Assembly: GCA_900298995.1 (NCBI GenBank)
Contig: OMIC01000040.1
Location: forward strand, 124,001-188,000
Source of the DNA: Hyphomicrobiaceae bacterium
Lineage (GTDB): Bacteria; Pseudomonadota; Alphaproteobacteria; Rhizobiales; Aestuariivirgaceae
DNA length: 64,000 nucleotides
Direction of reading: 5' to 3'
The position numbers were made by a program, and so were the translations under genes. Below the pieces are notes generated by a model. That model searched no databases. It was not told the DNA's origin and saw nothing but the letters and a program-made list of their open reading frames with translations. Below are positions 1 to 27,946 of the stretch, in pieces. Positions within the stretch are counted from its first letter, which is position 1. Every line of letters starts with the position of its first letter.

Positions 1-577
1 TCTCCTGCGGACCCAGCGCGGCGGTGGGTTCATCCATGATCAGGATACGGGCATTGAAGTGGATGGCGCGTGCAATGGCCACCGACTGGCGCTGGCCGCC
101 GGAGAGCTCCTTCACCGGTTCCTTGAAGCGACGGAAATTCGGATTGAGGCGGCCCATCACCTTGCGGCATTCGGCTTCCATCGCGGCATCATCGAGGGTA
201 CCGAAGCGGGTGCGCAGTTCACGGCCCAGATAGAGATTGGCGGCGGCATCGACATTGTCCGCGAGCGCCAGGGTCTGGTAGATCGTCTCGATGCCAAGCG
301 CCTTGGCGTCACGCGGATTGTTGATCTCGACCTTTCCGCCATTGATGAAGATCTCGCCATGGTCACGCCTGTAGGCGCCAGACAGAATCTTGATGAGGGT
401 CGACTTGCCGGCGCCGTTGTGGCCGAGCAGGCCCACGACTTCGCCGGGATAGAGATCGATCGAGGCGTGATCGACGGCCTTGATGCCACCGAAGGCAATC
501 GAGATGTCCTTCATCTCGATGAGCGGCGGTCCGGCGCGCTCCACATGTGTGGGGTGCTTGTGCGATGGCTTTGACAT
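1..577 (-). CDS. xylG: Sugar ABC transporter ATP-binding protein (partial, C-terminus off the window)
   Basis: This is the ATP-hydrolysing subunit of a CUT2-type sugar importer acting at the inner membrane. The visible 192 residues hold a complete first ABC domain: Walker [10 protein letters not shown] at residues 52-60, signature LSGGQRQ at about 158-164, and Walker B LIMDEPT at about 179-185. The rest of the protein lies left of position 1, so it cannot be seen whether it is the usual 500-residue two-domain XylG or a short single-domain form. The ATG at 577 has a GGAGGG ribosome site 7-12 bases upstream. It lies 17 bases after the permease gene, in the order binding protein, permease, ATPase. 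The xylose assignment rests on the binding protein. Confidence 0.9.
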
Positions 578-593
578 GTGTTTTCCCTCCCGC

Positions 594-1946
594 TCACTTC
601 ACCCGGCGCCGGTAGACCTGATCGATCCACACCGCGAAGACCAGAACGCAGCCCACCACCATGTCCTTGGTGGCGGATTCAAAATTGAGAAGCGTCATGC
701 CCGACTGCAGCGACTGCATCACCAGCGCGCCCAGCATGGCGCCATAGATCGTGCCGAGACCGCCGGCCAGCGAGGTGCCGCCGATCACCGCCGCCGCGAT
801 GACATAGAGTTCGTCGAACTGGCCCAATGCGTTGGTCGCCGAATCAAGACGCGCCGACGAGATGGATGCGGAGACGGCCGCCAGCATGCCCATGAGCGCG
901 AAGACCAGCACGGTGATCTTGCGGGTGTTGATGCCCGCGAGTTCGGCGGCTTCCGGATTGCCGCCGATGGCGTAGATGTAGCGGCCGAAGCGGGTGCGGT
1001 TGGCAAGGAAGGTCATGGCGATGCCGATGCCGAGTGCGATCAGCACCGGGATCGAATAGCCAAAGGCGATGTTCATGCCCTCCGGCGGCACGGTCACGCC
1101 GGTCTGCTGCGCCCAGCGGTCGACGACACCCTTGGGCCAGTAATAGGCGTTCACCACCCAGGTGACGCCCAGCACGACGATGCAGCCCGCGACGGCCAGC
1201 ACATATTCCGCCCACATGGGCCGAAGCGCGAAATTGAAGCGCTTGCGCTGCTTGCGGCCGTTGTAGATCATCGCAACAATGGCCGCGCAGATGACAAGAC
1301 CGAGGATCCAGCTCGCGATTGCGCCGATCGAGCCCGGCGTTATGCCCGAAATGCCTCCACCGATGAGCTTGAAGTTCTTGTCCATGGGCGCCACGGTCTC
1401 GCCGCGGATCACCGACCAGGCGGCACCGCGCCACACGATGAGGCCGCCCAGCGTGACGATGAAGGATGGAATCCCGAAATAGGCAATGAGCGAGCCGTGG
1501 AAGGCTCCGATGGCCGCGCCGAGCGCGAGCCCCAGAGCCAGCGTGATGATCCAGATGGCCGGATGACCGACGCCGACCAGCGGTCCGAGCCAGTAGACCT
1601 GCATGGTGCCGATGCAGACAGCGGTGAAGCCGAGGATGGAACCGACCGAAAGATCGATGTGACGCATCACGATGATCAGCACCATGCCGGTGGTCATCAC
1701 GGCGATTGAGGAGGTCTGGACCAGCAGGATCCACAGGTTGCGCGGTGTCAGGAAGCTGCCGCCCAGGAGGCCCTCGCCACCGCGCACGAAGGCACTGGCG
1801 GCATCAAAGCCGATCCAGATCACGAGCAGCGCACCGATCATGCCAAGCATGCGGGAGTCGATCTCGGTGGCGCGGAGGAAACGGGTCACCGCACCTTCCT
1901 GAGCCATCGCGGGCGTCTGGGTATTGTCGGTTGCGGCCATGCTCAT
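594..1946 (-). CDS. xylH: Sugar ABC transporter permease, XylH type
   Basis: About 450 residues forming the membrane channel of the sugar importer. The sequence has many hydrophobic segments and the BPD_transp_2 hallmark around [13 protein letters not shown] near residue 95, typical of ribose/xylose permeases, plus a late segment with [11 protein letters not shown]. The length agrees with the long XylH subfamily rather than the 320-residue RbsC. Two ATGs lie close together, at 1946 and 1940; a GAGGGGGG tract gives better spacing for 1946. It is downstream of the binding-protein gene, separated by a terminator-like hairpin at 2003-2037, which would let the binding protein be made in excess. 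Confidence 0.92.
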
Positions 1947-2002
1947 GCCCCCCTCGGAACTGGTTCGATCTCCGGCGCGCCTGTGTCTGGTCACGTCCGG
2001 TT

Positions 2003-2037
2003 ACGAAAACCGCGCCACTCCCGGAAGAGTGGCGCGG
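2003..2037 (-). terminator. Terminator-like hairpin between binding protein and permease genes
   Basis: A perfect 11-base-pair stem (2010-2020 with 2027-2037, loop of 6) reads on the minus strand as a GC-rich hairpin followed by TTTT. A smaller 6-base-pair hairpin lies just upstream at 2055-2070. In sugar ABC operons such intergenic structures give partial termination or protect the mRNA of the binding-protein gene. Here it lies 37 bases past the xylF stop. It is probably leaky because the permease lacks another obvious promoter. Confidence 0.6.
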
Positions 2038-2073
2038 CGCTTATGTCAGATCAAGCCGTTGTGGAACGGCAGA

Positions 2074-3120
2074 TCAGTTGCAGGCGGGAACAGAGCCCGC
2101 GGCCACGCCGGCGCAGACTTCGTCCTTGCTCACCCAACCAGCCTCGATCACCTCGTTCAGCTTGTCCTTGGTGACGGGGTTCGGCGGGATCAGCACGGCG
2201 TTGACTTCAACGCCCTTGGCACCACCCGAGAACTTGCCGACACCCGGCAGTTCGGCAGCGGCCTTGCCATCAGCGATCATGTTGGCGAATTCGGCGGCGG
2301 CCTTGCCGAGCACGCGCGAGTCCTTCCACACCGAGACCAGCTGGGTGCCGAGCGCGACGCGGTTCAGAGCGGCCTTGTCGCCGTCCTGGCCGGTGACCGG
2401 CACGGAGCCCGCGAGACCCTGGGCTTCGAGAGCGGCGACAACACCGCCAGCCATGCCGTCGTTCTCGGAGATGACCGCGTCAACCTTGTTGTTCACGGAG
2501 GTCAGGCACTGCTCCATGTTCTTCTGGGCAGCGTCCGGCTTCCAGCCGTCGGTGAAGGTTTCGCAGACATTCTTGATCTTGCCGGCGTCCATGTTGGGCT
2601 TCAGCACTTCCATGATGCCCTGGAACAGGAAGGTGGCGTTCGGGTCGCCCTTGTCGCCCTTGATGAAGGCGAAATCGCCTTCCTGCTTGCCCTTCTCGAG
2701 CATGGTCTTGGCCATCAGACGGCCAACGCCCACGTTGTCGAAGGTGACGTAGAGCGCATCGGGATGTTCGACGAGCACGTCATAGGAGATCATCTTCACG
2801 CCGGCGTCCGCGGCGGCCTGGAAGGCCGGCAGAATGGCGTCCGAGTCGAAGGCGACGACCAGAATGACGTTGCAGCCCTGCGTGATCAGGCCTTCGATGT
2901 CAGCCTGCTGCTTGGCAGCCGAACCCTGGGCATCGGCCGAGAAAAACTTGTTGCCAGCGCCTTCAACCACGGCCTTGATGGCCGCTTCGTCGGTCTTCCA
3001 GCGCTCTTCCTGGAACGTCTTCCAGGAAACGCAGATGTTCTTGCCGGCGGCTTCCGCCGACAGGGTGGACAGGCCGAGCACGAGCGCCCCGGCTGCCATG
3101 GTCATAATCTTGCGATACAT
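2074..3120 (-). CDS. xylF: Periplasmic sugar-binding protein, XylF type
   Basis: This is the periplasmic receptor of the ABC importer, 348 residues. A signal peptide covers about residues 1-24 (MYRKIMTMAAGALVLGL, then a SAEAA cleavage region). The body matches the type I D-xylose-binding family: ERWKTD near the N-terminus, AYDVL-like SYDVL, a VTFDN motif, the KGDKGDPNA loop, DGW and SENDGMAGG. The ATG at 3120 is preceded by GGAGGA; an upstream extension to 3336 in the same frame would destroy the signal peptide and is rejected. It heads the operon that faces the ROK regulator gene, which suggests induction by xylose or a related pentose. Confidence 0.93.
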   Translation of the reverse strand: MYRKIMTMAAGALVLGLSTLSAEAAGKNICVSWKTFQEERWKTDEAAIKAVVEGAGNKFFSADAQGSAAKQQADIEGLITQGCNVILVVAFDSDAILPAFQAAADAGVKMISYDVLVEHPDALYVTFDNVGVGRLMAKTMLEKGKQEGDFAFIKGDKGDPNATFLFQGIMEVLKPNMDAGKIKNVCETFTDGWKPDAAQKNMEQCLTSVNNKVDAVISENDGMAGGVVAALEAQGLAGSVPVTGQDGDKAALNRVALGTQLVSVWKDSRVLGKAAAEFANMIADGKAAAELPGVGKFSGGAKGVEVNAVLIPPNPVTKDKLNEVIEAGWVSKDEVCAGVAAGSVPACN

Positions 3121-3335
3121 TAAGGGTCCTCCTCCAGGCGACCACGATTTCCATGAGACGCCTCCCTGAAGCGGCTTTTCGCCACCGCACGGAAATCCTG
3201 GGTCCTGGACGTTCAGTTGTTTTATTTCGGCGTCCAAAAAAATGTTGCGACAATCCGCAGTAGGAGTCAATGTGCAATTCATGTGAAAGCTGATTGTGCG
3301 ATGCACAATGTATGCTGCGTATGCGAAGTGGAACA
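3121..3335. promoter_or_regulatory. Divergent control region between xylF and the ROK regulator
   Basis: This 215-base region holds both outward promoters. The clearest element is the perfect inverted repeat ATTGTGC-GAT-GCACAAT at 3293-3309, a likely operator for the ROK protein encoded next to it. A TTGCGACAA palindrome at 3245-3253 and an A/T-rich stretch at 3218-3244 lie on the xylF side. A weak minus-strand promoter can be drawn from TTGTCG (3248-3253) and CGAAAT (3224-3229) with an 18-base spacer. The xylF leader is about 100 bases long with a purine-rich 3' end. Confidence 0.5.
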
Positions 3336-4595
3336 ATGCGGGAGAAGGCGAACAGCGATCTGGTACGGCGGCAGAACCGGCTTCTGCTGCTTGAGGCCTT
3401 GCGTCAGCACGGGCCGCTGGCGCGGGTTGAGCTTGGCCGCCACACCGGATTGTCGCCGGCGTCGATCACGTCGATCTCATCGCAGCTGATCGCCGAGGGC
3501 ATTCTGGAACAGGCTGGCGAGCCCCAGGTTCCGGCTGACACCAGCCACCGTCGCGGGCGTCCGCTGACACAGATCGACATCAATCCGACCTGCGCCCATG
3601 TCGTCGCCGTCAAGCTCTCGATCGACGGCATTGATCTGGCGCTGGCCGACGGACGTGGCACCATCCTGTCGCGGCGCGCGGCACGCACGGCGACCTATGA
3701 TGCCGACCCCAAGGGCTTCGGGCGGCTCGTCGCGGATGAGATCGCCGCCCTGCTCGCCAAGGCGCAGGTTTCACCCGGACGTGTGGCACGCATCGGCATC
3801 GCGGTGCAGGGGGTTGCCGACTCACAGTCCGGCACGGTGGTGTGGAGCCCTGCCTTCCGCATGCGCAACATCTCGGTGTCGGCGGCCATCGAGGACCGGC
3901 TCGGCATTGCCTGCACCCTCGCCAATGACGCCAACATGATCGCCGAAAGCCTGATCACAACCCAACGCAATACTTATGGCGACACCGCAGCGGTGATCTT
4001 CATCGGCTATGGCGTCGGCATGGGCCTCATCATCAATGGGCAGGTCTATCATGGGCCCAGTGGAGCTGCCGCTGAATTCGGCCACATGAACCACAAGCCG
4101 GATGGTCCCCTTTGCCGCTGCGGACGGCGCGGTTGCGTCGAAGCATATGCGGCAGACTACAGCCTGCGGCGCGGGGCGTCCGGCGAGGCTGCCACCCGCC
4201 CGCCCTCCGTCAACGCCATTCCGGAAGCGGAGATGCTGGCGCTGGAGACAGCGGCCGGGCACGGCGAGCGACTGGCGCGCGAGGCCTATGCCATGGCTGG
4301 CGAGGCCCTGGGTTTCGGCATGGCCCGCATCATGTCGATCCTCACCCCCTCCCGCATCGTCCTGACGGGGCCCGGTACACGGGCCATGCCGCTCATCGCG
4401 CCGCATATCGACCGCGCCCTGGCAGAGGGGGTGGTCGAGGAGTTGCACCGCACGACAAGGATTGAAGTGATCCCCACCGACACCGACATGATCGTCCGGG
4501 GTACGATCAATCAGGCACTGCGCACAGTCGATCGGGAAGTCTTCGCCAATGGCCCCTTCACGCCGCGTCGGCGGGAACTGGAACGCATTGCATGA
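3336..4595 (+). CDS. ROK-family transcriptional regulator (XylR/NagC type)
   Basis: A 419-residue DNA-binding repressor of the ROK family. Residues 10-60 form a winged helix-turn-helix (VELGRHTGLSPASITSISS). The rest is a glucokinase-like sugar-binding domain with a phosphate loop (GVGMGLI), the AEFGHM motif and the ROK zinc signature CRCGRRGCVEAY at about residues 259-270. Earlier in-frame starts (3294, 3312) would place the palindromic operator inside or against the gene, so 3336 is preferred. Its position facing xylF suggests that it controls the sugar importer. It overlaps the next gene by 4 bases, so it also heads the seven-gene plus-strand unit. Confidence 0.9.
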   Translation: MREKANSDLVRRQNRLLLLEALRQHGPLARVELGRHTGLSPASITSISSQLIAEGILEQAGEPQVPADTSHRRGRPLTQIDINPTCAHVVAVKLSIDGIDLALADGRGTILSRRAARTATYDADPKGFGRLVADEIAALLAKAQVSPGRVARIGIAVQGVADSQSGTVVWSPAFRMRNISVSAAIEDRLGIACTLANDANMIAESLITTQRNTYGDTAAVIFIGYGVGMGLIINGQVYHGPSGAAAEFGHMNHKPDGPLCRCGRRGCVEAYAADYSLRRGASGEAATRPPSVNAIPEAEMLALETAAGHGERLAREAYAMAGEALGFGMARIMSILTPSRIVLTGPGTRAMPLIAPHIDRALAEGVVEELHRTTRIEVIPTDTDMIVRGTINQALRTVDREVFANGPFTPRRRELERIA

Positions 4596-5911
4596 AACTC
4601 ACCCGCCGCCGCGCCCTTCAGTTCGGCGCCGCAATGGCGCTCATCGGATATCATGGAGGTCGCGCCCAGGCCCGCGACGCGGGTGACGGTCTCCGCCGCT
4701 GGTATCATCTCGTGCTACGGTTGGTGCGTCACACACCCACCTATTCGCCACCGGTGGCAAGTCGCGCCTTTGCCTATCTCGGCGTGGCTGCCTATCAGGC
4801 AGTGGCCTCAGGCTCGGCATCCTTGATTTCACTCGAAGGCCAGCTCAACGGCCTGACCGCACTGCCCAGACGCACCCCCGGGGAGAGCTACAGCGATGCG
4901 GTCATCCAGCACAGCGTGATGGCAACGGCGGTCAGAGCCTTTTTCGGCAACACCGGGCCTACGGGTCAGCGCGTGATGACCGCGACCGAGAAAAAGCTCA
5001 GGACCGATGCGCAAGCAGGCGTTGCCGAAGATGTCATCGCTCGGAGCATTGCCTATGGCGACGCGCTCACAGCCGCAATCATCGCCTGGTCGGAGACAGA
5101 TGGCGGTGCGGTGATCGCCAACATGGGGTTTCCGCTCGACTACAAGCTCACAGCGGGCAAAGCACGCTGGGTGCCAACCAGCGCCATTCGCCAGCAGCAG
5201 TTCCCACTGCTGCCGGACTGGGGCAGGAACCGCACTTTCGCGATGCCCGATGGCGCGACCTGCCCGTTGCCGCCACCGCCTGACTACAGCGAAGATCCGG
5301 ACTCCGATTTCTACCGCGAGGCACGCGAAGTCTATGACACCACGCGGAGCCTCACGGTCGACCAGGAAGCCATTGCACGCTTCTGGTCGGACGATCCAAT
5401 GCTGTCGCCGACGCCACCCGGTCACTGGATCCAGATCGCGCTCGAGCGTCTGGCTGCCGAGTCGGCGAGCCTCGACCGGACCGCCGAGGTGCTGATGGTA
5501 CTGGGCATCGCCATGGCTGATGCCTTCATCGGCTGCTGGAATGCCAAGTATCAATATGATCTGCTGCGGCCCGTCACCTATATCCGCCGGGTCATCGATC
5601 CCGCATGGGAGCCGCTGCTGATCACGCCGCCCTTTCCCGAATATCCGAGCGGACACAGCACACAGTCCGGCGCCGCTGCGGCGGTGCTGACCAAGCTCCT
5701 TGGCGCCAGGGTTTCCTTCACCGACACGACCCATGTCCGCGACGGGCTGGAGCCACGCCACTTCGCGAGCTTCGAAGCTGCAGCCCAGGAGGCAGGCATC
5801 TCGCGGCTCTATGGCGGCATCCATTTCCGCGCCGCCATCGAGAGGGGCCTCGATCAGGGACGCTGTATCGGGCAGCATGCGCTGGCCCTGCGCACCCGGA
5901 GCTCGACATGA
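4592..5911 (+). CDS. Vanadium-haloperoxidase-like PAP2 superfamily protein with Tat signal
   Basis: A 439-residue exported protein of the vanadium-dependent haloperoxidase / PAP2 phosphatase superfamily. The N-terminus has a twin-arginine-like signal (TRRRALQFGAAMALIG). All three metal/phosphate-binding motifs are intact: K-x6-RP (K about 318, RP about 325-326), PSGH at about 351-354, and SR-x5-H at about 404-411. Such proteins either oxidise halides with vanadate or hydrolyse phosphate esters; sequence alone does not decide. It overlaps the ROK gene by 4 bases (ATGA) and the following gene by 4 bases, implying coupled translation. The likely site of action is the periplasm. Confidence 0.88.
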   Translation: MKLTRRRALQFGAAMALIGYHGGRAQARDAGDGLRRWYHLVLRLVRHTPTYSPPVASRAFAYLGVAAYQAVASGSASLISLEGQLNGLTALPRRTPGESYSDAVIQHSVMATAVRAFFGNTGPTGQRVMTATEKKLRTDAQAGVAEDVIARSIAYGDALTAAIIAWSETDGGAVIANMGFPLDYKLTAGKARWVPTSAIRQQQFPLLPDWGRNRTFAMPDGATCPLPPPPDYSEDPDSDFYREAREVYDTTRSLTVDQEAIARFWSDDPMLSPTPPGHWIQIALERLAAESASLDRTAEVLMVLGIAMADAFIGCWNAKYQYDLLRPVTYIRRVIDPAWEPLLITPPFPEYPSGHSTQSGAAAAVLTKLLGARVSFTDTTHVRDGLEPRHFASFEAAAQEAGISRLYGGIHFRAAIERGLDQGRCIGQHALALRTRSST

Positions 5912-7512
5912 AGCGCGTTGTGCTGGCCGTGCTTGCAGGTCTCGTGGTCCTGCGCCCGGCAGCCGCGTCAGAAGAGATGATCGTTCCGCGCTTCAGCGAT
6001 GAAACGCAAGCCTCCGGCATCAACAGCGTCTATGCGGGCGAATGGCAATACATGGTGGGCGGCGGCGCCGCCGTCTTCGACTGCAACGCTGATGGGTTTC
6101 CGGACGTTTTGCTGGCGGGCGGGGAGAAGCCTGCGAACTTCTATGTCAACACCGCGCGGCAGGGCGGGCCCCTGACCTTCGCGCGACAGCCGAGTGGACT
6201 GGAATTCGATGCCGTGACCGGCGCCTACCCCCTCGACATCGACAGCGACGGCATCATGGATGTCGTGGTGCTGCGGGTTGGCGAGAACATCATCATGAAG
6301 GGCGAAGGCAACTGCCGCTTCAGCCGCAGCAACGAGGCCTGGGGGTTTGACGGCGGCGACGGCTGGTCCACCGCCTTCGCAGCGATCTGGGAGAAGGATG
6401 CTGCATGGCCGACGCTGGCCATCGGCAACTACATCGACCGTACGCAGGAACTCGAACCCTGGGGCTCCTGTACGCCCAACTGGCTACATCGACCCGCGCC
6501 GGGTGCGAAAGGGTTTGCGCCACCGCTGCCGCTGACGCCCAGCTATTGTCCACTCTCCATGCTGTTCACTGACTGGAGCAACAGCGGAACAGCTGATCTC
6601 CGCGTGTCGAATGATCGCGAATATTACGAGGGCGGGCAGGAACAGATGTGGCGCATGACCCCCGGCAAGCCGCCGCAACTCTATTCCAAAGCGGAAGGCT
6701 GGCGCTATCTTCGCATCTGGGGCATGGGCATCGCCGGATATGATCTCGATGCCGATGGCTACCAGGAATATGCCCTGACATCGATGGCCGACAACAAGTT
6801 GCAGACGCTGGCGAAGCCGCCCCAGCAGGGCACGCGTCCTGAACCAAGCTACAAGGATGTCGCCTGGGCCAAGGGCGCGACCGCACACCGGCCTTTCATG
6901 GGTGATGATCTGCGGCCCTCGACCGGCTGGCACACGGAGTTCCAGGACGTCAACAATGATGGCCGCGCAGACCTTTTCATCGCCAAGGGCAATGTCTCTG
7001 AAATGCCGGACTTCGCCATGAAGGATCCAAACAATCTTCTGGTGCAGGGAGTCGATGGCAAGTTCATCGAGATGGCGGGCGTGGCGGGCGTCGCCAGTCT
7101 GGCGCAGGCGCGCGGCGGCGCCGTCACAGACTTCAATCTCGATGGCCTTGTGGATCTTCTGGTGGTGAACCGCAACAGCACCGCGGAGATCTGGCGCAAC
7201 ACAACGCCTGGCGCCGGCAACTGGATTGCCGTGCAATTGAAACAGCCTGCTCCCAACACCGGGGGCGTGGGCGCCATGGTGGAGGTCAGGACGGCCGAGG
7301 GCGTGCAGCGCCGCGAGATCACGGTGGGTGGCGGCCATGCCTCGGGCCAGGCGGGATGGATCCATTTCGGCATCGGCGACGCCGTTCATGCCGACCTCCG
7401 CGTGCGCTGGCCGGGCGAGGATTGGGGCGAACCGATCACAGTCCCGGTGAACGGCTTTGCCATCGTCGACAAGATCGGACCCGCCGCTCATGCCTGGCGA
7501 CCGGCCCGCTGA
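5908..7512 (+). CDS. Secreted FG-GAP/VCBS repeat protein of the CRTAC1 (ASPIC/UnbV) type
   Basis: A 534-residue exported protein. A signal peptide covers about residues 1-22 (MKRVVLAVLAGLVVLRPAAA). Five calcium-loop motifs of the form DxDxDG or DxNxDG are visible: DCNADG near 57, DIDSDG near 110, DLDADG near 279, DVNNDG near 348 and DFNLDG near 408, as in FG-GAP beta-propellers. The C-terminal 80 residues (GNWIAVQLK onward) fit the ASPIC/UnbV domain seen in CRTAC1-like proteins. The start at 5908 is set by the signal peptide and the 4-base overlap with the haloperoxidase-like gene; the open frame extends further upstream but only as shadow. The ligand is unknown; it may bind carbohydrate or the partner enzyme. 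Confidence 0.88.
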   Translation: MKRVVLAVLAGLVVLRPAAASEEMIVPRFSDETQASGINSVYAGEWQYMVGGGAAVFDCNADGFPDVLLAGGEKPANFYVNTARQGGPLTFARQPSGLEFDAVTGAYPLDIDSDGIMDVVVLRVGENIIMKGEGNCRFSRSNEAWGFDGGDGWSTAFAAIWEKDAAWPTLAIGNYIDRTQELEPWGSCTPNWLHRPAPGAKGFAPPLPLTPSYCPLSMLFTDWSNSGTADLRVSNDREYYEGGQEQMWRMTPGKPPQLYSKAEGWRYLRIWGMGIAGYDLDADGYQEYALTSMADNKLQTLAKPPQQGTRPEPSYKDVAWAKGATAHRPFMGDDLRPSTGWHTEFQDVNNDGRADLFIAKGNVSEMPDFAMKDPNNLLVQGVDGKFIEMAGVAGVASLAQARGGAVTDFNLDGLVDLLVVNRNSTAEIWRNTTPGAGNWIAVQLKQPAPNTGGVGAMVEVRTAEGVQRREITVGGGHASGQAGWIHFGIGDAVHADLRVRWPGEDWGEPITVPVNGFAIVDKIGPAAHAWRPAR

Positions 7513-7566
7513 TCACGGGAAGCTGATTTCCATTTATCGCCAATCGCCTTATGAGCAGGAGCGGAC

Positions 7567-8775
7567 ATGGAGACAACCGGCATGACCTTCACGCTCACCC
7601 GTCGCGGCCTCATACAGCTACTCGCAGCCACCCCGCTCGCCGGGCGGGCGCGGGCCGGCGAGGTCTGGGATGGCATCGTGGCCGAAGCCCGCGGCCAGAC
7701 CGTCTATTTCAATGCCTGGGCGGGCTCGCCGCAGATCAATGCCTACATCGCCTGGGTTGGCGAGGCCCTGCAGAGGCGCCATGACATCAGGCTTGAGCAT
7801 GTGAAGCTTGCAGACACGGCAGAAGCGGTCCGGCGGGTGCGCGATGAGGTAACCGCCGGGCGGGCGGGCAGTGCCGATCTCCTCTGGATCAATGGTGAGA
7901 ACTTCCGCGTGATGAAGGCGGAGAAGCTGCTGTTCGGACCCTTCGCCGAGGACCTGCCGAACTTCGCGCTGGTGGATATCGCGGGCAAGCCCACCACCCG
8001 CATCGACTTTGCCGAGGCCACCGCAGGGCTCGAATCTCCCTGGGGCATGGCCCAGCTCACATTCTTCGCCGATGGCGCAAAGCTCCCGACGCCGCCCCTG
8101 TCGATGCCAGAACTGCTGGAGCTGGCGCGTAGCGCGCCAGGCCGCATCACCTACCCCGCACCGCCGGATTTTCACGGCACGACCTTCATCAAGCAGGCAC
8201 TCGCCGAGACCATGGCCGACCGCGCGCTGTTGCCCGTCCAGATCGACCGGCAGGCCTTCACCGAGGCCGCGAAACCGCTCTTCGAATTCCTCGATGCCCT
8301 GCATCCCGAGCTGTGGCGCCACGGCAAGCAGTTTCCGCAGACGCAGGCGCAGATGACCCAGATGCTGGCAGACGGTGAGTTGCTGGTGGGCCTCACCTTC
8401 AATCCCAACGAGCCCGCCAATCTGGTGGCAACCGGCACGCTGCCCTCCTCGACCATCGCCTGGCAGAATCGTGGTGGCACCATCGGCAACACGCATTTCG
8501 TGGCGATCCCGGTCAATTCCACTGCCAGGCAGGCGGCGCAGGTGACTGCCAATTTCCTGCTTTCGCCGGAAGCGCAGGCGCGCAAGGCCGACCTCGCCAT
8601 CTGGGGTGATCCTACGGTACTGGACATGGCGAAACTCACCCCCGAAGACCGGGCCCTCTTCACCTCCGCCGCAGCGCCCGGCTCCGTGACACAGCCCGCG
8701 CCCGCCATTCCGGAGCCACATGGCAGCTGGGTGCCGTTGATCGAGGCCGCATGGCTCGAACGCTACGGCGCCTGA
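7567..8775 (+). CDS. ynjB: ABC transporter substrate-binding protein, YnjB family
   Basis: A 402-residue extracytoplasmic binding protein. A signal with a twin-arginine look (TLTRRGLIQLLAATPLAG) spans residues 7-25. The mature part begins with the YnjB hallmark VYFNAWAGS and continues with DLLWINGENF and SPWGMAQ, features shared with E. coli YnjB and related thiamine/iron-type binding proteins. The ATG at 7567 has AGGAGCGG upstream. The substrate of YnjBCD is not known. It lies 54 bases after the CRTAC1-like gene and overlaps the permease gene by 25 bases, so the two are translated together. Confidence 0.9.
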   Translation: METTGMTFTLTRRGLIQLLAATPLAGRARAGEVWDGIVAEARGQTVYFNAWAGSPQINAYIAWVGEALQRRHDIRLEHVKLADTAEAVRRVRDEVTAGRAGSADLLWINGENFRVMKAEKLLFGPFAEDLPNFALVDIAGKPTTRIDFAEATAGLESPWGMAQLTFFADGAKLPTPPLSMPELLELARSAPGRITYPAPPDFHGTTFIKQALAETMADRALLPVQIDRQAFTEAAKPLFEFLDALHPELWRHGKQFPQTQAQMTQMLADGELLVGLTFNPNEPANLVATGTLPSSTIAWQNRGGTIGNTHFVAIPVNSTARQAAQVTANFLLSPEAQARKADLAIWGDPTVLDMAKLTPEDRALFTSAAAPGSVTQPAPAIPEPHGSWVPLIEAAWLERYGA

Positions 8776-10379
8776 CGCCCGCCCAGGGGGCGCTTCCCAT
8801 CCTCGTGCTGTGGGTCCTTCCGCTTGCAGCCTCCATGCTCATGCTGCTGCCCGCGATTGCCGAGCCGGATGCGTGGCGGCAGCTGCAATCCCATCCGCAA
8901 CTGTGGTCGGCGCTGGTGCTGTCGCTTGCAACCGGCGGCGGAGCGAGCGTGCTCGCACTGTTGATGAGCGTCCTCGTGCTGGCCGGTCTCGACCGCAGCC
9001 GTGCCCTGCCGCAGCTCCAGGCACTCGCTGCGGCGGGTCTTGCGCTGCCGCATCTTGCCTTTGCCATCGGCTTCGGATTTCTCATCATGCCGACCGGGCT
9101 GATCGCACGGCTCATCGAGGGCGGCGCCACGCCACCGCCATGGGTCACGGTCCAGGACTCCTGGGGCCTTTCACTGATGCTTGCCCTGGCGCTGAAGGAA
9201 CTGCCATTCCTTCTGATCGCCGCCCTCGCCGCACTGGCGCGGGGCGATGGCACAGGCCACCTGACACAGGAGCGCCGCGTGGCGGCAAGTCTCGGGCATG
9301 GTGCGGGCTCTGTGTGGCTGCGCGTGGTGCTGCCGCAGCTTCTGCCCAGCCTGCGCTGGCCACTGGTCATCGTCTTCGTCTATGGCGCGACGGTCGTGGA
9401 CATGGCGCTGGTACTCGGGCCCACGCAACCTCCGACCCTTGCGGTGGTGATCTGGCACGCGCTGAACCATGCCGATGCGGCGGTCAATGGCATGGGCCTC
9501 GCCATGACCCTGCTGCTGACATCCGTGCTGGCAGCGCTCGTGGCCACGACCCTGCTGCTCTTGCAGGTCACTCTTCCGAGGCTGCGGCACTGGCTCTGCG
9601 CCGGACCATCGCTCCTCGCCGCTCCCCGGGGCATGGCGGTTGTGACCGGCACGATGGCGGGACTTCTGATGCTGGCCGCGATCCTGCTGCTTGCCCTCCT
9701 GTCCGTGACGCCGCGCTGGCCCTATCCGGCGCTGATGCCGCCGGCTGTCACGTTCGCGGCCTGGACCACGCTGGGTTCATCGGCCGCGCCGCTGTGGCTG
9801 AGCCTGTTGCTCGCGGCGACGACCGCACTGGCGGCCCTCGGACTTGCGCTGCTTTGGTTCGAGACCCAGCCAGAAGGGCGCGACCGCTGGCTCATCGGAC
9901 TTGCCCTCGCCACGCTGGCGTTGCCGCAACTCGCCGTGGCCGGCGGCCAATACCGCCTGTTCCTCGGACTTGGCCTCACCGGCACGCTGCCGGGCCTGTT
10001 CCTGGCCCATCTGACGCCGGTGGCGGCCTATGTGCTCATCATACTGCAGGGGCCGTACCGCGCCTTCGACAGCCGCTACATGATGGTGGCCCGCAGCCTC
10101 TCGGTTCCAGCGTCCACCGCGTGGCTCCGGGTCAAGCTGTCCCTGCTCAGAGCGCCGGTGCTGACCGCCGCCGCGATCGGCTTTGCGGTGTCGATGGCGC
10201 AGTTCGTGCCGGCACAGCTTGTTGCGGCAGGACGCTACAGTACATTGCCCATGGAAGCGGTGACACTGTCCGCTGGCGGCAACCGGCCACTGACGGCGGC
10301 CTTTGCCCTGTGCCTTGCAGCACCTCCGCTTGCCGCCTTTCTCGCGGCCAGCCTGCTGGGGAGGCCGCGATGGCGCTGA
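8751..10379 (+). CDS. ynjC: ABC transporter permease, YnjC family
   Basis: A 542-residue inner-membrane permease made of two fused BPD_transp_1 halves, as in ThiP and FbpB. About 12 hydrophobic segments are visible, with the EAA-type cytoplasmic loops around RVAASLGHGAG in the first half and ARSLSVPAS in the second. Partner genes on both sides (binding protein before, ATPase after, overlapping by 10 bases) complete the YnjBCD importer. No other function is suggested by the sequence. Confidence 0.9.
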   Translation: MARTLRRLTPAQGALPILVLWVLPLAASMLMLLPAIAEPDAWRQLQSHPQLWSALVLSLATGGGASVLALLMSVLVLAGLDRSRALPQLQALAAAGLALPHLAFAIGFGFLIMPTGLIARLIEGGATPPPWVTVQDSWGLSLMLALALKELPFLLIAALAALARGDGTGHLTQERRVAASLGHGAGSVWLRVVLPQLLPSLRWPLVIVFVYGATVVDMALVLGPTQPPTLAVVIWHALNHADAAVNGMGLAMTLLLTSVLAALVATTLLLLQVTLPRLRHWLCAGPSLLAAPRGMAVVTGTMAGLLMLAAILLLALLSVTPRWPYPALMPPAVTFAAWTTLGSSAAPLWLSLLLAATTALAALGLALLWFETQPEGRDRWLIGLALATLALPQLAVAGGQYRLFLGLGLTGTLPGLFLAHLTPVAAYVLIILQGPYRAFDSRYMMVARSLSVPASTAWLRVKLSLLRAPVLTAAAIGFAVSMAQFVPAQLVAAGRYSTLPMEAVTLSAGGNRPLTAAFALCLAAPPLAAFLAASLLGRPRWR

Positions 10380-11014
10380 GCCTCGAAGAGGTGAGCATCC
10401 GCCTCGACGGACACACTCTCATCAAGCCCTTCACGATGAGGCTGGAGAAGGGCGTGATCGTGACCCTGATGGGCCCGAGCGGGTCGGGAAAGTCGACGCT
10501 GCTGTCCTTCATCGCGGGCGATCTCACCGCCCCCTTCACCGCCACGGGAGACGTGACACTCGATGGCCGCAACCTCGATGGCCTGCCGCCCGAGAAACGG
10601 CGCATCGGACGGCTGTTCCAGGACGATCTGCTGTTTCCGCACATGAGCGTGGCTGAAAACCTCCTGTTCGGCATGCCGCGCGGCGAGCAACAGGCACGCC
10701 ATGCCGCCATGACGGCGGCACTTGCCGAAGCCGGGCTTGCCGGTTTCGCAGAGCGGCCACCCCAAACCCTGTCGGGCGGCCAGCGCGCGCGTGTAGCGCT
10801 GCTGCGCTCGCTGCTGGCCAGTCCCGGCGCGATGCTTCTCGACGAACCCTTCAACAAGCTCGACGCGGACCTCCGCGCCGGCTTGCGCGACTTCGTGTTC
10901 CGTCATATCGCCGCGCGCGACATTCCCTGCCTGATGGTGACGCATGATCGCGCCGACGTGCCGCCGGGCGGGCGGCTTCTGCTGCTCGGGCGGGGCGAGG
11001 TCCGGGATGCTTGA
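10370..11014 (+). CDS. ynjD: ABC transporter ATP-binding protein, YnjD family
   Basis: A 214-residue ATPase driving the YnjBC transporter. Walker A is GPSGSGKST at residues 35-43, the Q-loop lies in RLFQDDLLFP, the signature is LSGGQRAR near 134-141, and Walker B is AMLLDEPF with the H-loop in MVTHDRAD. The frame stays open for 1560 bases upstream, but homology starts only at 10370, where the ATG lies inside the end of ynjC. It overlaps ynjF by 8 bases. Confidence 0.92.
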   Translation: MALSLEEVSIRLDGHTLIKPFTMRLEKGVIVTLMGPSGSGKSTLLSFIAGDLTAPFTATGDVTLDGRNLDGLPPEKRRIGRLFQDDLLFPHMSVAENLLFGMPRGEQQARHAAMTAALAEAGLAGFAERPPQTLSGGQRARVALLRSLLASPGAMLLDEPFNKLDADLRAGLRDFVFRHIAARDIPCLMVTHDRADVPPGGRLLLLGRGEVRDA

Positions 11015-11612
11015 CCGACTTGCCCTTCGGCTCGCCAAGCCCGTGGTCGACGCCGCAGCCGCAGGCCTGGCCGCGCGCGGCATCGGCGCCGACCAGGTGA
11101 CGCTCGCAGGCTTCGGCTTCGGCGTACTCGCCGCGCTGTCCGTGGCGCTGGGCTTTACGGGCCTTGGACTTCTGCTGCTCCTCCTGAACCGCGCGCTCGA
11201 CGGCGTCGATGGCGCGCTCGCCCGCGCGACAGGGCCCACCGAGCGGGGCGCCTTTCTTGACATCACGCTCGATTTTGTCTTCTACGCCGCCATTCCGCTG
11301 GCCTTTGCCATACAGGACCCCGGTGCCAATGCACTCGCCGCAGCCATTCTGCTCGCCGCCTTTCTCGCCACCGGCACGAGCTTCCTGGCATTTGCGGTGA
11401 TGGCGGAAAAGCGCGGTCTGAAGAGCACGGCCTTTCCTGCGAAGTCCTTCTACTATCTGGGCGGGCTCACAGAGGGGACAGAGACGATCCTCTGCTTTGC
11501 CGCCATGTGTGTGTGGCCTGCGCACTTCGCCGGCATCGCTCTCTTCTATGCCGGGCTCTGCGCCGTGACGGCGATGACGCGGCTCGTCGCGGGCTGGCGG
11601 CTCTTCGCCTGA
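11007..11612 (+). CDS. ynjF: CDP-alcohol phosphatidyltransferase, YnjF family
   Basis: A 201-residue membrane enzyme of the CDP-alcohol phosphatidyltransferase family, which joins a CDP-linked lipid or alcohol to another alcohol. The catalytic motif is LDGVDGALAR near residue 72 followed by ERGAFLDITLDF. The gap between AR and G is 7 residues where the family rule is 8. The later segment KSFYYLGGLTEGTETI is, as I recall it, also present in E. coli YnjF. About 6 membrane segments are visible. In E. coli ynjF also sits next to ynjBCD, so the functional link between transporter and transferase is conserved. Substrates are unknown. Confidence 0.9.
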   Translation: MLDRLALRLAKPVVDAAAAGLAARGIGADQVTLAGFGFGVLAALSVALGFTGLGLLLLLLNRALDGVDGALARATGPTERGAFLDITLDFVFYAAIPLAFAIQDPGANALAAAILLAAFLATGTSFLAFAVMAEKRGLKSTAFPAKSFYYLGGLTEGTETILCFAAMCVWPAHFAGIALFYAGLCAVTAMTRLVAGWRLFA

Positions 11613-11929
11613 AAAAATCCGTCGCGCGTGCAAAAAACGCTTGCACCGAATCGTGAAACGAAACATATAGCGCTCGCCCAAAGTCGCACGTGCCCCAAGG
11701 ATTTCCCCAAAGCAACGACGGTGCGGGCTTTTTGGTCTCTGCCGGCTCCTCCACAGGCCGGGGTTACTGAGAGGCACCACTATCCTTGCCCCATGTGCGA
11801 TTGGGACTCTCCCGATCAAGCCAAGGCGAACGTCAGCATGAGCCCGGCGTGTCCACGTCTCCATCGCGTGGCATGGCAGGAATCCGGCTGGCGCAGGCAA
11901 CGCATATTCCGATCCCGGGAGACACTCCA
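11613..11929 (+). promoter_or_regulatory. Promoter and long structured leader of the ornithine decarboxylase gene (candidate speF leader)
   Basis: This 317-base gene-free stretch starts with a clear promoter: TTGCAC at 11641-11646, 17-base spacer, CATATA at 11664-11669, predicting transcription from about 11676 and a leader of about 250 bases. The leader contains several hairpins: CCGGC/GCCGG at 11742-11746 and 11757-11761, an 8-base-pair stem at 11799-11806 with 11810-11817, and CCACG/CGTGG at 11853-11857 with 11867-11871. Alphaproteobacterial ornithine decarboxylase genes are known to carry a conserved RNA element named speF; position and length fit, but I could not check the consensus. Confidence 0.6.
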
Positions 11930-13066
11930 ATGGCAGCCACCGCCCGTATTCTCGATTTTCTCCGCGACCGACGCCCCGAAGGCCCCTGCCTCGTGGTCGA
12001 TCTCGATGTCGTGGCCCAGAACTACAGCGCCTTCACCCGCGCCATGCCCGATACCCGCATCTTCTACGCGGTGAAGGCAAATCCGGCGCCAGAGATCCTC
12101 AGGCTGCTGGCTGGCATGGGCTCATGCTTCGACACCGCCTCGGTGCCGGAGATCGAAATGGCGCTCGCCGCTGGCGCCACGCCCGAGCGCATCTCCTTCG
12201 GCAACACCATCAAGAAGGAGCGCGACATTGCCCGCGCCCATGCGCTGGGTGTTGCGCTGTTCGCGGTGGATTCCGCTGAAGAGGTTGAAAAGATCGCACG
12301 GGCCGCGCCCGGCGCGCGGGTGTTCTGCCGCATCCTGACGGATGGCGCGGGGGCCGAATGGCCACTGTCGCGCAAGTTTGGCTGCGAACCCACCATGGCA
12401 GTGGACGTGCTGATGCATGCCCATGCTCTGGGGCTCGAAGCCTATGGCATCTCCTTCCATGTCGGCTCGCAGCAGACGCGGCTGGAGGCCTGGGACACGG
12501 CGCTGGCCGAGTCCAAGGCGGTGTTCGACGCCATGCAGGCGCGCGGCATCACGCTGAAGATGGTCAATCTCGGCGGCGGCTTTCCTACCAGGTACCTCAA
12601 GGACGTGCCTGGCACGGGAAGCTATGCCAATGCCATCCATGACGCGCTGACCCGGCATTTCGGCAACGCGATCCCCGAGACGATCATCGAGCCGGGCCGC
12701 GGCATGGTGGGCAATGCTGGCGTGGTGAAGGCAGAGGTGGTGCTGATCTCCCGGAAACACGCCAATGACAACCAGCGCTGGGTCTATCTCGACATCGGCA
12801 AGTTCGGCGGCCTCGCCGAGACGATGGATGAGGCGATCCGCTACCCGATCGTGACGGCGAAGGACGCCGAGGCAAAGGCGCCCTGCGTGATTGCCGGGCC
12901 CACCTGCGACTCGGCCGACGTGCTCTACGAGAAGACGCCCTACGACCTGCCGGTGACACTCACCGTCGGCGATGAGGTGCTGATCGAGGCCACGGGCGCC
13001 TATACGACGACCTATGCTGCCGTCGCCTTCAACGGCTTTGCGCCGCTCAAGGCCTACGTCATCTGA
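11930..13066 (+). CDS. Ornithine decarboxylase, PLP-dependent fold III (group IV)
   Basis: A 378-residue PLP enzyme converting ornithine to putrescine (some family members also take lysine). It has the fold-III motifs: PLP lysine in YAVKANP near residue 48, HVGSQQ near 177, the phosphate loop GGGFPT near 215, EPGRGMVGNAG near 253, and the second-subunit cysteine in CDSAD near 325. This is the short eukaryote-like form, not the 700-residue SpeF/SpeC fold-I enzyme of enterics. The frame is open upstream to 11786, but the family start and the GGGAGA site fit 11930. Likely regulated through its long leader. Confidence 0.92.
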   Translation: MAATARILDFLRDRRPEGPCLVVDLDVVAQNYSAFTRAMPDTRIFYAVKANPAPEILRLLAGMGSCFDTASVPEIEMALAAGATPERISFGNTIKKERDIARAHALGVALFAVDSAEEVEKIARAAPGARVFCRILTDGAGAEWPLSRKFGCEPTMAVDVLMHAHALGLEAYGISFHVGSQQTRLEAWDTALAESKAVFDAMQARGITLKMVNLGGGFPTRYLKDVPGTGSYANAIHDALTRHFGNAIPETIIEPGRGMVGNAGVVKAEVVLISRKHANDNQRWVYLDIGKFGGLAETMDEAIRYPIVTAKDAEAKAPCVIAGPTCDSADVLYEKTPYDLPVTLTVGDEVLIEATGAYTTTYAAVAFNGFAPLKAYVI

Positions 13067-13075
13067 CACCTCCGT

Positions 13076-13100
13076 CGCCCCCGGCCTGAGGCCGGGGGAC
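13076..13100 (+). terminator. Strong hairpin after the ornithine decarboxylase gene
   Basis: A perfect 9-base-pair stem (13078-13086 with 13090-13098, loop TGA) starts 12 bases after the decarboxylase stop codon. No T-run follows, so it may be a mRNA-stabilising end or part of a dispersed palindromic repeat. A second perfect stem (13120-13126 with 13130-13136) follows before the acetyltransferase gene. Confidence 0.45.
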
Positions 13101-13157
13101 CAACATCACCCTTTGGTTTCCGGCGCCCTGCGCCGGGATGACAGGATGCGATTGGAC

Positions 13158-13682
13158 ATGATCACGATCCGGACCGAAACCACTGCTGATATCGCGCCGC
13201 GCGAGCGCCTGCTCGACCGCGCCTTCGGCAAGACACGCCGCCGCAAGACCTCCGAACGCCTGCGCGAGGGCCGGTTGCCGGCCGAAGGCCTCGCCTTCAC
13301 CGCGCTGGACAGCAAAGGGCGTCTCATCGGCACGCTGCGCCTGTGGAACGTGCTGGCGGGATCCGCCGGCCCCGCGCTGCTGCTCGGGCCTCTTGCCGTC
13401 GACTGCAAGCACCAGCGCAAGGGCGTCGGTGCGGCCCTGATGGGCCATGCGCTCGAAGAAGCCCGCTGGCGCGGCCATGCAGCCGTCATCCTGGTGGGTG
13501 ATGCGCCCTATTATGCGCGCTTCGGCTTTGCCGCCGGGGTCGTCGCGGATCTGCATCTGCCGGGCCCTGTCGAACGGGCGCGCTTCCTTGGCCTTGAACT
13601 GATGCCGGGCGCGCTCGATGGCGCCGAGGGCCTGGTCGCGGGTTGCGGACGGCGCGAGGGCGCAGCGCAGAAGGCGGCCTAA
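13158..13682 (+). CDS. GNAT-family N-acetyltransferase
   Basis: A 174-residue acetyltransferase, cytoplasmic. It opens with MITIRTE and carries the acetyl-CoA pyrophosphate loop QRKGVGAALM followed by the APYYARFGF motif typical of the YhbS-like GNAT subgroup. An ATG at 13146 in the same frame is an alternative start. It follows the ornithine decarboxylase by about 90 bases on the same strand, with two hairpins between. Acetylation of putrescine or another amine is a guess from the neighbour only. The 3' end overlaps the convergent kinase gene by 4 bases. Confidence 0.85.
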   Translation: MITIRTETTADIAPRERLLDRAFGKTRRRKTSERLREGRLPAEGLAFTALDSKGRLIGTLRLWNVLAGSAGPALLLGPLAVDCKHQRKGVGAALMGHALEEARWRGHAAVILVGDAPYYARFGFAAGVVADLHLPGPVERARFLGLELMPGALDGAEGLVAGCGRREGAAQKAA

Positions 13683-15100
13683 TCTGTCTTCCAGCCCCTG
13701 GCGCGGGTTATCGCACCGGCGAAGCGGCGCCGCGCCTCGGGTCCTTCGGTCCCCACCGGCCTCACCATGCTGCCAGGCGGCGGCAATGCGGGGAGCATTG
13801 CCACACTGAGCCCCCGCATCGCCATGCGGGCGGTGCCCAGCGCTGTGAGGTCGGTGGAGGACGGAACCGCGATGGTCCGCCCCGTGACATCCGCGAGAAA
13901 CTGCAGGAGATAGGGATTATTCGCCATGCCGCCGTCAACGGACAGCGTGTCGCTCAGCGGCAGCAGCTCCGCCATGGCGGCAACCACCTCGGCGGCCCGC
14001 AGGGCCACGCCTTCGATGAGGCTCTGCATGAGATCGGACCGGGTCGTGTCGAGACCAAGACCGATCCACAGACCCGCCGCAGAACGATCCCAGTGCGGAC
14101 AGGCAAGACCCGACAGAGCCGGGACGAAGGCGAGGCCGCGCAGGATCGCAGGATCCTTCTCGAAACGGCCAATCTCCTCATAGGACTGGAACAGGCCGAG
14201 GCCTTTGGCCCAGTTGATGGCGGAGGCGGCGTTGTAGACACCTCCCTCAAGCGCGAAGAAGGCCGGCTCAAGCAATTGCCGCCAGGCCACCGTTGGCAGG
14301 ATGCCAAAGCGGCTGCCGTTGATACGCGCCGGCCCTGCAACGGCAAGCGCGAAGGCGCCGGTACCGAAAGTGATCTTGACGTCACCGGGCGAGGCGCAGC
14401 CGTGACCGAAGAGCGCAGCCTGCTGATCGACAAGGCTTGCCGTCACGGGTACTCCTGCATGAACGCCGAATGATCCTGCAGAGGGCCGGATTTCTGGCAG
14501 GCACTCCATCGGCACGCCGAACATGCGGCACAGGTTTTCGTCCCACCCAAGCCTGTCAAGCGACATGAGGCTGGTCCGCGAGGCCGTCGTCACATCGGTG
14601 ACGAATTCTCCCGTCAGCCGCGCCAGCAGGAATGACTCGGACGTTCCCAGCCGGAGGCGCTTCTCGCGCAACAGTTCGGCCGCGTCCGGCACATGGTCGA
14701 TGAACCAACGAAGCTTCGACGCCGAGAAATAGGGGTCGAGCGGAAGGCCAGCGATGGCAAGGGTCTGTTCCTCCGCGCCGTCAGCCTTGAGGCGGGCAGT
14801 GACGTCGCGGGTGCGATCGTCCTGCCAGACGATAGCGTTGTGGATGGGCCGCCCGGTGCGGGAATCCCAGGCAACGACGGTCTCGCCCTGATTGTCGATG
14901 CCGATGGCGTCGGCCGGTCCGGCGGCGGCGATTGCCGCCGCGACGTGACCGAGAAGTTCCTCCGGATCGTGCTCAACCCAGCCCGGCTGCGGATAGATCT
15001 GGCGGTGGACGAAGCCCGTCACATCGGCAAAGCCGCCCTCGTCATCCAGCGTAAACGCCTTGGTGCCGGTTGTTCCCTGATCAATGGCGATGACCTTCAT
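13679..15100 (-). CDS. FGGY-family carbohydrate kinase, glycerol-kinase-like
   Basis: A 473-residue sugar/polyol kinase using ATP. It starts with the FGGY phosphate-1 motif AIDQGTTGTKAF and shares several GlpK blocks: NAIVWQDDRT, TDVTTASRTSLMS, DQQAALFGHG, ITFGTGAFAL and VDGGMANNPYL. Glycerol kinase is about 500 residues and has GITNQRET where this protein has GIDNQGET, so a different polyol is possible. The start ATG at 15100 overlaps the upstream flavoprotein stop by 4 bases. With the two flavoproteins it resembles the glycerol kinase / split glycerol-3-phosphate dehydrogenase sets of Thermotoga and Firmicutes. Confidence 0.88.
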   Translation of the reverse strand: MKVIAIDQGTTGTKAFTLDDEGGFADVTGFVHRQIYPQPGWVEHDPEELLGHVAAAIAAAGPADAIGIDNQGETVVAWDSRTGRPIHNAIVWQDDRTRDVTARLKADGAEEQTLAIAGLPLDPYFSASKLRWFIDHVPDAAELLREKRLRLGTSESFLLARLTGEFVTDVTTASRTSLMSLDRLGWDENLCRMFGVPMECLPEIRPSAGSFGVHAGVPVTASLVDQQAALFGHGCASPGDVKITFGTGAFALAVAGPARINGSRFGILPTVAWRQLLEPAFFALEGGVYNAASAINWAKGLGLFQSYEEIGRFEKDPAILRGLAFVPALSGLACPHWDRSAAGLWIGLGLDTTRSDLMQSLIEGVALRAAEVVAAMAELLPLSDTLSVDGGMANNPYLLQFLADVTGRTIAVPSSTDLTALGTARMAMRGLSVAMLPALPPPGSMVRPVGTEGPEARRRFAGAITRARGWKTD

Positions 15101-15996
15101 GCCTCGCCCCTCGCGATCCGTTCGGCAGCTTCCCGTCCCTCGCGCCAGCAGAGGCCGGATGTCTTGACCGCGCCGTGAACATTTCCCGCCAGCATCGCGT
15201 CGGGCCGGTTGGCAAGCAGCGATGCCTCGGGGACGAATTCACCTGACAGGATCACGCCGTCGCAGGAGATGCACTCGGTCCGGCCATCGCATTCCAACTC
15301 GACAGCGTCGACCTGGTCACGGCCTGAAATCGCCACGAGGCGCGTGCGTGTACGCACCCGGACACCGAACAGGAGACCCGCCGCCAGCCCGCCAGGCCAT
15401 GGCGCCGAGATTCGGTCCCGCGCCTCGATCATCATCACGGGCCGGATACCCATGTGGCGGCAGGTGAGCAGTGCCGAGAACGCCACCCATTCGCTTCCGA
15501 TGATGACCGGCCGGCTGAAGGGCTTGTGGTGGTGAAGATAGACATGGGCCTGAAGTGCGCCCGTTGTCATCACGCCGGTCGGCCGCGTGCCACCGACAAA
15601 GCGGGGCGCGCGAGGGGTCTCCCGCGTGCCGGTGGCGAGCAGGATGCGCGCTGCCGCGAGTTCGAAGACGCCGTCCGTGTTCTGAACCTTGAGCCTGTCC
15701 CCGTCGATGCCGAGAACCGTGTGTGCCGTGCGGACATCAAGCCCCTCGACGTCATGGCGGAGTCGCGCGGCGAATTGTGGACCGGTCCAGATCCGGCGAT
15801 GGCTCTGCCAGCCGAAGCCCAGATGTCCGCAGTGGCGGGGAATGCCGCCCGCCGAGGGCTCGCGCTCGAGAACACTCACTGAACCGATGCCGAGTTGCGA
15901 CAGGCGCAAGGCGGCGGACAGCCCCGCCGGACCACCGCCGACGATCACGACGTCACGGCGCTCCACGCTGCGCCTCCCTGAAGATGGCCTCGACAT
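15097..15996 (-). CDS. NAD(P)/FAD-dependent oxidoreductase (GlpB/HcnB-like small flavoprotein)
   Basis: A 299-residue flavoprotein with the FAD-binding VIVGGGPAGLSAAL near residues 17-30 and the family motif LLATGTRE near residue 140. The second nucleotide-binding region around VIIGSEWVAFSA lacks a standard GxGxxG. It ends early compared with 400-residue HcnB/OoxA-type proteins because it has no C-terminal BFD iron-sulfur domain; that domain is present in its neighbour. It overlaps the neighbour gene by 44 bases and the kinase by 4, so the three should be co-translated and probably form a complex. Electron acceptor and substrate are not known. Confidence 0.82.
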   Translation of the reverse strand: MSRPSSGRRSVERRDVVIVGGGPAGLSAALRLSQLGIGSVSVLEREPSAGGIPRHCGHLGFGWQSHRRIWTGPQFAARLRHDVEGLDVRTAHTVLGIDGDRLKVQNTDGVFELAAARILLATGTRETPRAPRFVGGTRPTGVMTTGALQAHVYLHHHKPFSRPVIIGSEWVAFSALLTCRHMGIRPVMMIEARDRISAPWPGGLAAGLLFGVRVRTRTRLVAISGRDQVDAVELECDGRTECISCDGVILSGEFVPEASLLANRPDAMLAGNVHGAVKTSGLCWREGREAAERIARGEA

Positions 15997-27844: not shown

Positions 27845-27946
27845 GGTGGGAGGCTGGACGGGCAACCCGTTCCATTCTCGTTAGGGCTGCTTCCTTCCGG
27901 ACCTGACCCGGTTGGCGAGCGGCACGTCCGCCGCCAACCTCCCGCT
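27845..27946 (-). ncRNA. ffs: Small bacterial signal recognition particle RNA (4.5S)
   Basis: The minus strand contains the highly conserved SRP core GGTCAGGTCCGGAAGGAAGC at 27889-27908, continuing into AGCC, which forms the Ffh-binding asymmetric loop and tetraloop. The outer arms pair: GGGAGG at 27938-27943 with CCTCCC at 27848-27853, giving a single hairpin of about 100 bases as in the short SRP RNA. Ends are estimated from pairing and promoter position. It guides inner-membrane and secreted proteins to FtsY. Confidence 0.95.

Follow-up and report, generated by a model that had tools for sequence, protein, structure and literature searches.

In a 64,000-nucleotide stretch of a Hyphomicrobiaceae bacterium genome (contig OMIC01000040.1, positions 124,001 to 188,000; referred to here, at its full length, as the window), seven plus-strand genes encode a ROK-family regulator, a predicted exported vanadium-haloperoxidase-like enzyme of the PAP2 fold (VHPO), a CRTAC1-like FG-GAP/ASPIC protein (CRTAC), and the proteins YnjB, YnjC, YnjD, and YnjF. 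The core of these seven genes is the two-gene VHPO-CRTAC pair, and its recurring partner across genomes is a sugar importer, which a preliminary description of the locus had not noticed. Taken as a whole, the reading that we consider somewhat probable is that the string joins three older modules, a ROK/xylFHG switch, VHPO-CRTAC, and YnjBCD-YnjF, and that VHPO-CRTAC, judged from sequence, would be a sugar-regulated exported module used in carbohydrate utilization, with the Ynj set independent of it and attached later.

VHPO (4592-5911, plus strand; PAP2 PF01569, 38 bits) and its obligate neighbor CRTAC (5908-7512, plus strand) were analyzed in other genomes. In the named-genome search, which gave 240 VHPO relatives and leans to close relatives, CRTAC lay immediately after VHPO on the same strand in all 80 of the best loci that were kept, and the pairing was also observed in loci from the genome search. 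Together with the signal-like N-termini on both proteins, this bears out the enzyme-propeller pair proposed in the preliminary description. No CRTAC was found near the distant PAP2 homologs L030-L039, and the pairing is therefore specific to the VHPO subfamily. Both proteins are of known kinds; what looks new is their pairing and its sugar context, and no description of the pair was found in a literature search limited to open-licence papers.

The CRTAC protein exceeded the cut-off for both FG-GAP_3 (PF13517, 79 bits) and UnbV_ASPIC (PF07593, 43.2 bits) in the hidden Markov model (HMM) search and matched the CRTAC1 profile at 1.8e-19. Its AlphaFold2 model (predicted local distance difference test, pLDDT, 84.9) had murine CRTAC1 (9etn; template modeling score, TM, 0.69) as the top PDB match, and the model and the match agree on a CRTAC1-type propeller fold. 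The two proteins share the FG-GAP propeller and the ASPIC/UnbV region but only 18% identity, and the window protein is bacterial and stands beside VHPO. The second-best fold match was aldos-2-ulose dehydratase (4a7y; E 1.6e-8, TM 0.53), a sugar enzyme that resembles CRTAC in fold and differs in being a longer protein with 13% identity. No match between the two emerged at the sequence level in a profile search, leaving a likeness at the fold level only, which may be generic propeller similarity.

In the sequence search, the closest match of VHPO was the vanadium iodoperoxidase of Zobellia galactanivorans (4cit, 243 bits over residues 49-429), whereas acid phosphatases gave E 0.29 or worse. The AlphaFold2 model (pLDDT 82.4) had 4usz and 4cit as top fold matches, with 36% identity and TM 0.79/0.84. 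The vanadate-site residues Lys319, Arg326, Ser-Gly-His 353-355, Arg405, and His411 were present in VHPO and invariant in 88 sequences, as was Trp316, which precedes the active-site Lys; these residues and a nearby Phe are shared with the Zobellia enzyme. The invariant Trp and the full-length homology to 4cit place VHPO in the haloperoxidase lineage. Unlike the Zobellia enzyme, VHPO stands beside a CRTAC partner and a xylose-type regulator. Two side observations concern VHPO-like sequences. A Rhizobium etli plasmid (L160, locus 4617-13352) encodes a very large protein with Ig-like domains that contains a VHPO-like domain. In L150 (G539:C1:51524-52747), the genome search gave one TGA within the aligned VHPO stretch, whereas gene calling yielded an uninterrupted frame of 446 aa.

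The PAP2 fold is common to acid phosphatases, and VHPO could be a periplasmic phosphatase that, with CRTAC, splits phosphorylated sugars, so that XylFHG would receive the sugar and Pst the phosphate. Such a role would suit the Mesorhizobium-type loci, where pst-phoU-phoB immediately precedes VHPO-CRTAC in the same orientation and ROK and xylFHG lie on the pair's other side (L048, L052, L086, L090, L092, L097, L103, and L104). The iodoperoxidase match and the invariant Trp before the active-site Lys speak against it, and pst genes were not observed around the pair either in the window or in the majority of other groups; we regard the phosphatase role as unlikely.

The sugar link in the window itself lies directly upstream of the seven genes. 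The genes xylF, xylH, and xylG occupy positions 2-3120 of the minus strand and were absent from the preliminary account. They comprise a xylG-like sugar ATP-binding cassette (ABC) ATPase truncated at the start of the window (2-544; partial protein, RbsA/XylG-type models), a xylH-like sugar ABC permease (594-1940), and a xylF-like sugar-binding protein (2074-3120; TIGR02634 323 bits, below the cut-off of 389.55; PF13407 215.8 bits). The ROK gene (3336-4595, plus strand; PF00480 146.6 bits, with a winged helix-turn-helix domain) diverges from them across an intergenic gap of 215 bases. This gap contains a 23-bp candidate ROK operator, TTTATTTCGGCGTCCAAAAAAAT (3221-3243, no strand), kept exactly or nearly in the xylF-ROK gaps of Aestuariivirga-type loci; in loci of the Mesorhizobium and Rhodobacter types, this gap holds related inverted repeats. 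A pattern search found the gap site to be the sole exact copy of TTTATTTCGGCGTCCAAAAAAAT in each of four genomes. A palindrome preceding ROK, TTGTGCGATGCACAA (3294-3308, no strand), is a possible second operator. In the sister genome G186, a copy of the operator pattern with 3 mismatches was located about 70 bases before xylB-xylA (XylB 563 bits). Because of the divergent xylFHG, the operator-like site in the gap, and the similar site before xylB-xylA in G186, ROK is most likely a xylose regulator. The arrangement resembles the ROK/xylFHG xylose regulons of Alphaproteobacteria in regulator type, operator-like site, and importer.

Of 37 genomes, 18 had a gene for a sugar-binding protein no more than 10 kb from VHPO, where the PF13407 density of the individual genomes predicts 2.8; the nearby genes were found with a separate XylF/ChvE-type profile, and the count ignores relatedness. 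At least eight changes of the xyl-linked state were required on the VHPO tree, a quick tree with many weak branches. Besides ROK-VHPO with divergent xylF, the arrangements included xylFHGBA-VHPO-CRTAC (L108, L115, and L073), xylFHG-VHPO-CRTAC (L028 and L029), xylF divergent from VHPO (L027), LysR-chvE-gguAB-gguC adjoining the pair (L091, L099, L101, and partly L047), and dgoK-dgoA-gluconolactonase followed by VHPO (L079 and L084). Further groups had galactose-pathway genes, L-arabinonate dehydratase, or a rhamnose mutarotase cluster near the pair. In G467, which belongs to a different class of the phylum, lacI-xylB-xylA-xylF-xylH-xylG-CRTAC-VHPO share one strand, and the pair, in reversed order, closes the operon. 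SusC-SusD-ASPIC-VHPO was found in Gemmatirosa and SusC-SusD-ASPIC-hypothetical-VHPO in Hymenobacter. As a separate observation, the xylB-xylA operons of L161 (G467), L217 (G000:C2:130000-142000), and L219 run into a COG1082-type isomerase gene and a Gfo/Idh oxidoreductase gene, which in G467 lie just past CRTAC-VHPO; these gene types have also been noted in Halomonas xylose operons (PMC5507952).

A second operator-like site accompanies the pair elsewhere. The sequence AATCGATT, often present in the pair's promoter in Rhizobium-type genomes, was located upstream of 17 of 84 VHPO genes but only 4 of the 1415 other genes that these loci contain; because the sequences are related, the 17 do not count as independent events. 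Among those four other genes, two sit in loci whose VHPO has the site as well. The extended pattern occurred 4-10 times per genome in six genomes, and several of the sites whose flanks were read precede pgi, pckA, a fructokinase-like gene, and mgsA-glk, with eno in L062. PMC4052901 describes a LacI-type PckR regulon in Rhizobiales, and the AATCGATT targets, with sites before pckA, mgsA-glk, and pgi, fit in kind the central-carbon regulon presented there. PckR would thus be the name of the AATCGATT regulator by its target genes rather than by comparison with the published motif. GguR was rejected as that regulator, chvE and the adjacent LysR gene not being among the AATCGATT-bearing genes. No report was found in which VHPO-CRTAC is a member of a xylose or PckR-type regulon.

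The sugar linkage could also reflect mere shared chromosomal inheritance, with the pair having a general oxidative, halide-detoxifying, or defense role. Roughly half of the genomes lack a sugar importer within 10 kb, and a promoter-like motif of its own was found before the pair in 41 of 84 loci against 15 of 1415 other genes. The pair is therefore usually a unit by itself; in the window, the 4-base overlap joins it to ROK. Inheritance alone accounts poorly for the differing gene orders and strands with their repeated changes of state, the single-strand xylose operon of G467, the SusCD loci in two phyla, and the AATCGATT site, and this explanation appears a shade less likely than that of a phosphatase.

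Several observations weigh against a sugar-regulated haloperoxidase module, besides the lean of the named-genome sample and the uncorrected relatedness in the importer count. In many Rhizobium-type loci, no sugar importer lies within 10 kb of VHPO, and in Adhaeribacter, a counter-example, a VHPO homolog occurs with no CRTAC nearby. AATCGATT was not found in the first 25 kb of the window. The operator-like site ahead of xylB-xylA was observed in one genome only, G186, and the pattern search found none near xylBA in G000 and G068. We infer the haloperoxidase chemistry of VHPO from homology alone, and its fold matches in the PDB also include phosphatases and a rearrangement enzyme. At the position of Tyr263, which in the Zobellia iodoperoxidase we take to have an active-site role, 87 of 88 sequences, VHPO of the window among them, have Met and one has Gly. 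To our knowledge, a Tyr at this position does not define the family, and its absence argues only against the term iodoperoxidase in the strict sense.

The seven genes were all present on the plus strand between 3336 and 11612 as first described (open reading frame listing and translation), with exactly the reported overlaps of 4, 4, 25, 10, and 8 bases and the single 54-base gap, and their assigned identities agreed with HMM families. After the pair follow the YnjB substrate-binding protein (7567-8775; PRK11622 486.6 bits, cut-off 203), the YnjC permease (8751-10379), the YnjD ATPase (10370-11014; ABC_tran 107.7 bits), and the YnjF CDP-alcohol phosphatidyltransferase (11007-11612; CDP-OH_P_transf 26.3 bits), all on the plus strand. 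With 48%, 33%, 49%, and 50% identity to E. coli K-12 YnjB, YnjC, YnjD, and YnjF, respectively, they are orthologs of the proteins of the E. coli ynjABCDE/ynjF region. That region differs in having ynjE between ynjD and ynjF, ynjF on the opposite strand, and no VHPO, CRTAC, or ROK. The seven-gene combination is kept within the genus of the window and a few allied metagenome-assembled genomes (MAGs), and since the gene order is kept in relatives, it is not a chance arrangement. Judged by its closest named relatives, the genome of the window is that of an Aestuariivirga-like alphaproteobacterium, and Aestuariivirga litoralis (L044) has the genes in the same order.

The linkage of the Ynj set to the pair is narrow. 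YnjB was linked to VHPO in 13 of 74 scorable loci, and across all of these the link requires at least two changes on the VHPO tree. Of 249 genomes of the order, 69 have YnjB and 9 have the VHPO subfamily; most YnjB genomes had no VHPO-CRTAC pair, and YnjB adjoins VHPO in 5, all of one genus. In G104, a member of this genus, YnjB lies about 24 kb from VHPO; it is on another contig in G095 and was absent from G186 and G247. Linkage of YnjBCDF to VHPO-CRTAC was not found to extend beyond one lineage. Co-occurrence, which the preliminary description had named as the check on its proposal, thus held within the genus and close allies; outside them adjacency was rare, the very outcome that was to refute the proposal. 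YnjBCDF is a lineage-specific attachment in Aestuariivirga-like genomes, gained perhaps once or twice, and may be coexpressed with the pair from the same predicted transcript. The pathway first suggested, a single coevolved system in which the VHPO-CRTAC product is imported by YnjBCD and attached to lipid by YnjF, could draw on the tight overlaps and the order kept in the genus and its allied MAGs, but with so few linked loci, so many YnjB genomes relative to VHPO genomes, and a linkage confined to one or two lineages, it is unsupported and very improbable.

Downstream of YnjF, an Orn/DAP/Arg decarboxylase gene (about 11927-13066) follows in Aestuariivirga-like loci and was considered as a member of the unit, but an ar45 small RNA (11676-11732) and a speF leader (11740-11890), both on the plus strand and above the Rfam gathering score, intervene. 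Because these elements separate YnjF from the decarboxylase gene, the unit probably stops at YnjF, and the gene probably encodes a separately regulated ornithine decarboxylase. Elsewhere in the window, a glycerol kinase-like gene, another gene, and a glycerol-3-phosphate oxidase-like gene were located on the minus strand (13679-17308; NCBIfam, below equivalog cut-offs), a trimethylamine:corrinoid methyltransferase-like protein on the plus strand (19194-20747; NCBIfam, 276.8 bits, equivalog cut-off of 525 not reached), and a bacterial small signal recognition particle RNA on the minus strand (27846-27942; Rfam).

Under the sugar-regulated reading, ROK would leave the operator at 3221-3243 in the presence of xylose or a related sugar, and xylFHG and a ROK-VHPO-CRTAC-Ynj transcript would then be made, as the operator, the 4-base overlaps, and the divergent layout suggest. 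VHPO and CRTAC would be exported, to judge from their signal-like N-termini. By homology, VHPO would bind vanadate and oxidize a halide with peroxide, most likely iodide or bromide, while the CRTAC propeller might bind or process a neighboring carbohydrate substrate and the product, presumably a sugar, would be taken up by the linked importer. A variant that we put forward tentatively, and think unlikely, is that the pair forms an undescribed exported carbohydrate-processing system. CRTAC would be a sugar-acting propeller enzyme, as the fold match to aldos-2-ulose dehydratase hints, and its PAP2-fold partner would oxidize or rearrange sugar-derived substrates rather than carry out classical halogenation, the product passing to XylFHG or SusCD and in some genomes to the COG1082-type isomerase and Gfo/Idh oxidoreductase.

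We know of no settled physiological role for bacterial haloperoxidases of this branch or for CRTAC1/ASPIC proteins; CRTAC1 is also a human plasma protein with an unclear function. The pair is associated with operator sites of the xylose and central-carbon types and with sugar importers in Bacteroidota, Gemmatimonadota, and two classes of Pseudomonadota. This link points to a condition that can be tested directly, namely growth on pentoses or on glycans from plants and algae, and to a protein partner for copurification. If it is true, halogen or vanadate chemistry would be joined to carbohydrate uptake, and the carbohydrate-processing variant, if correct, would provide the first function for bacterial CRTAC1 proteins.

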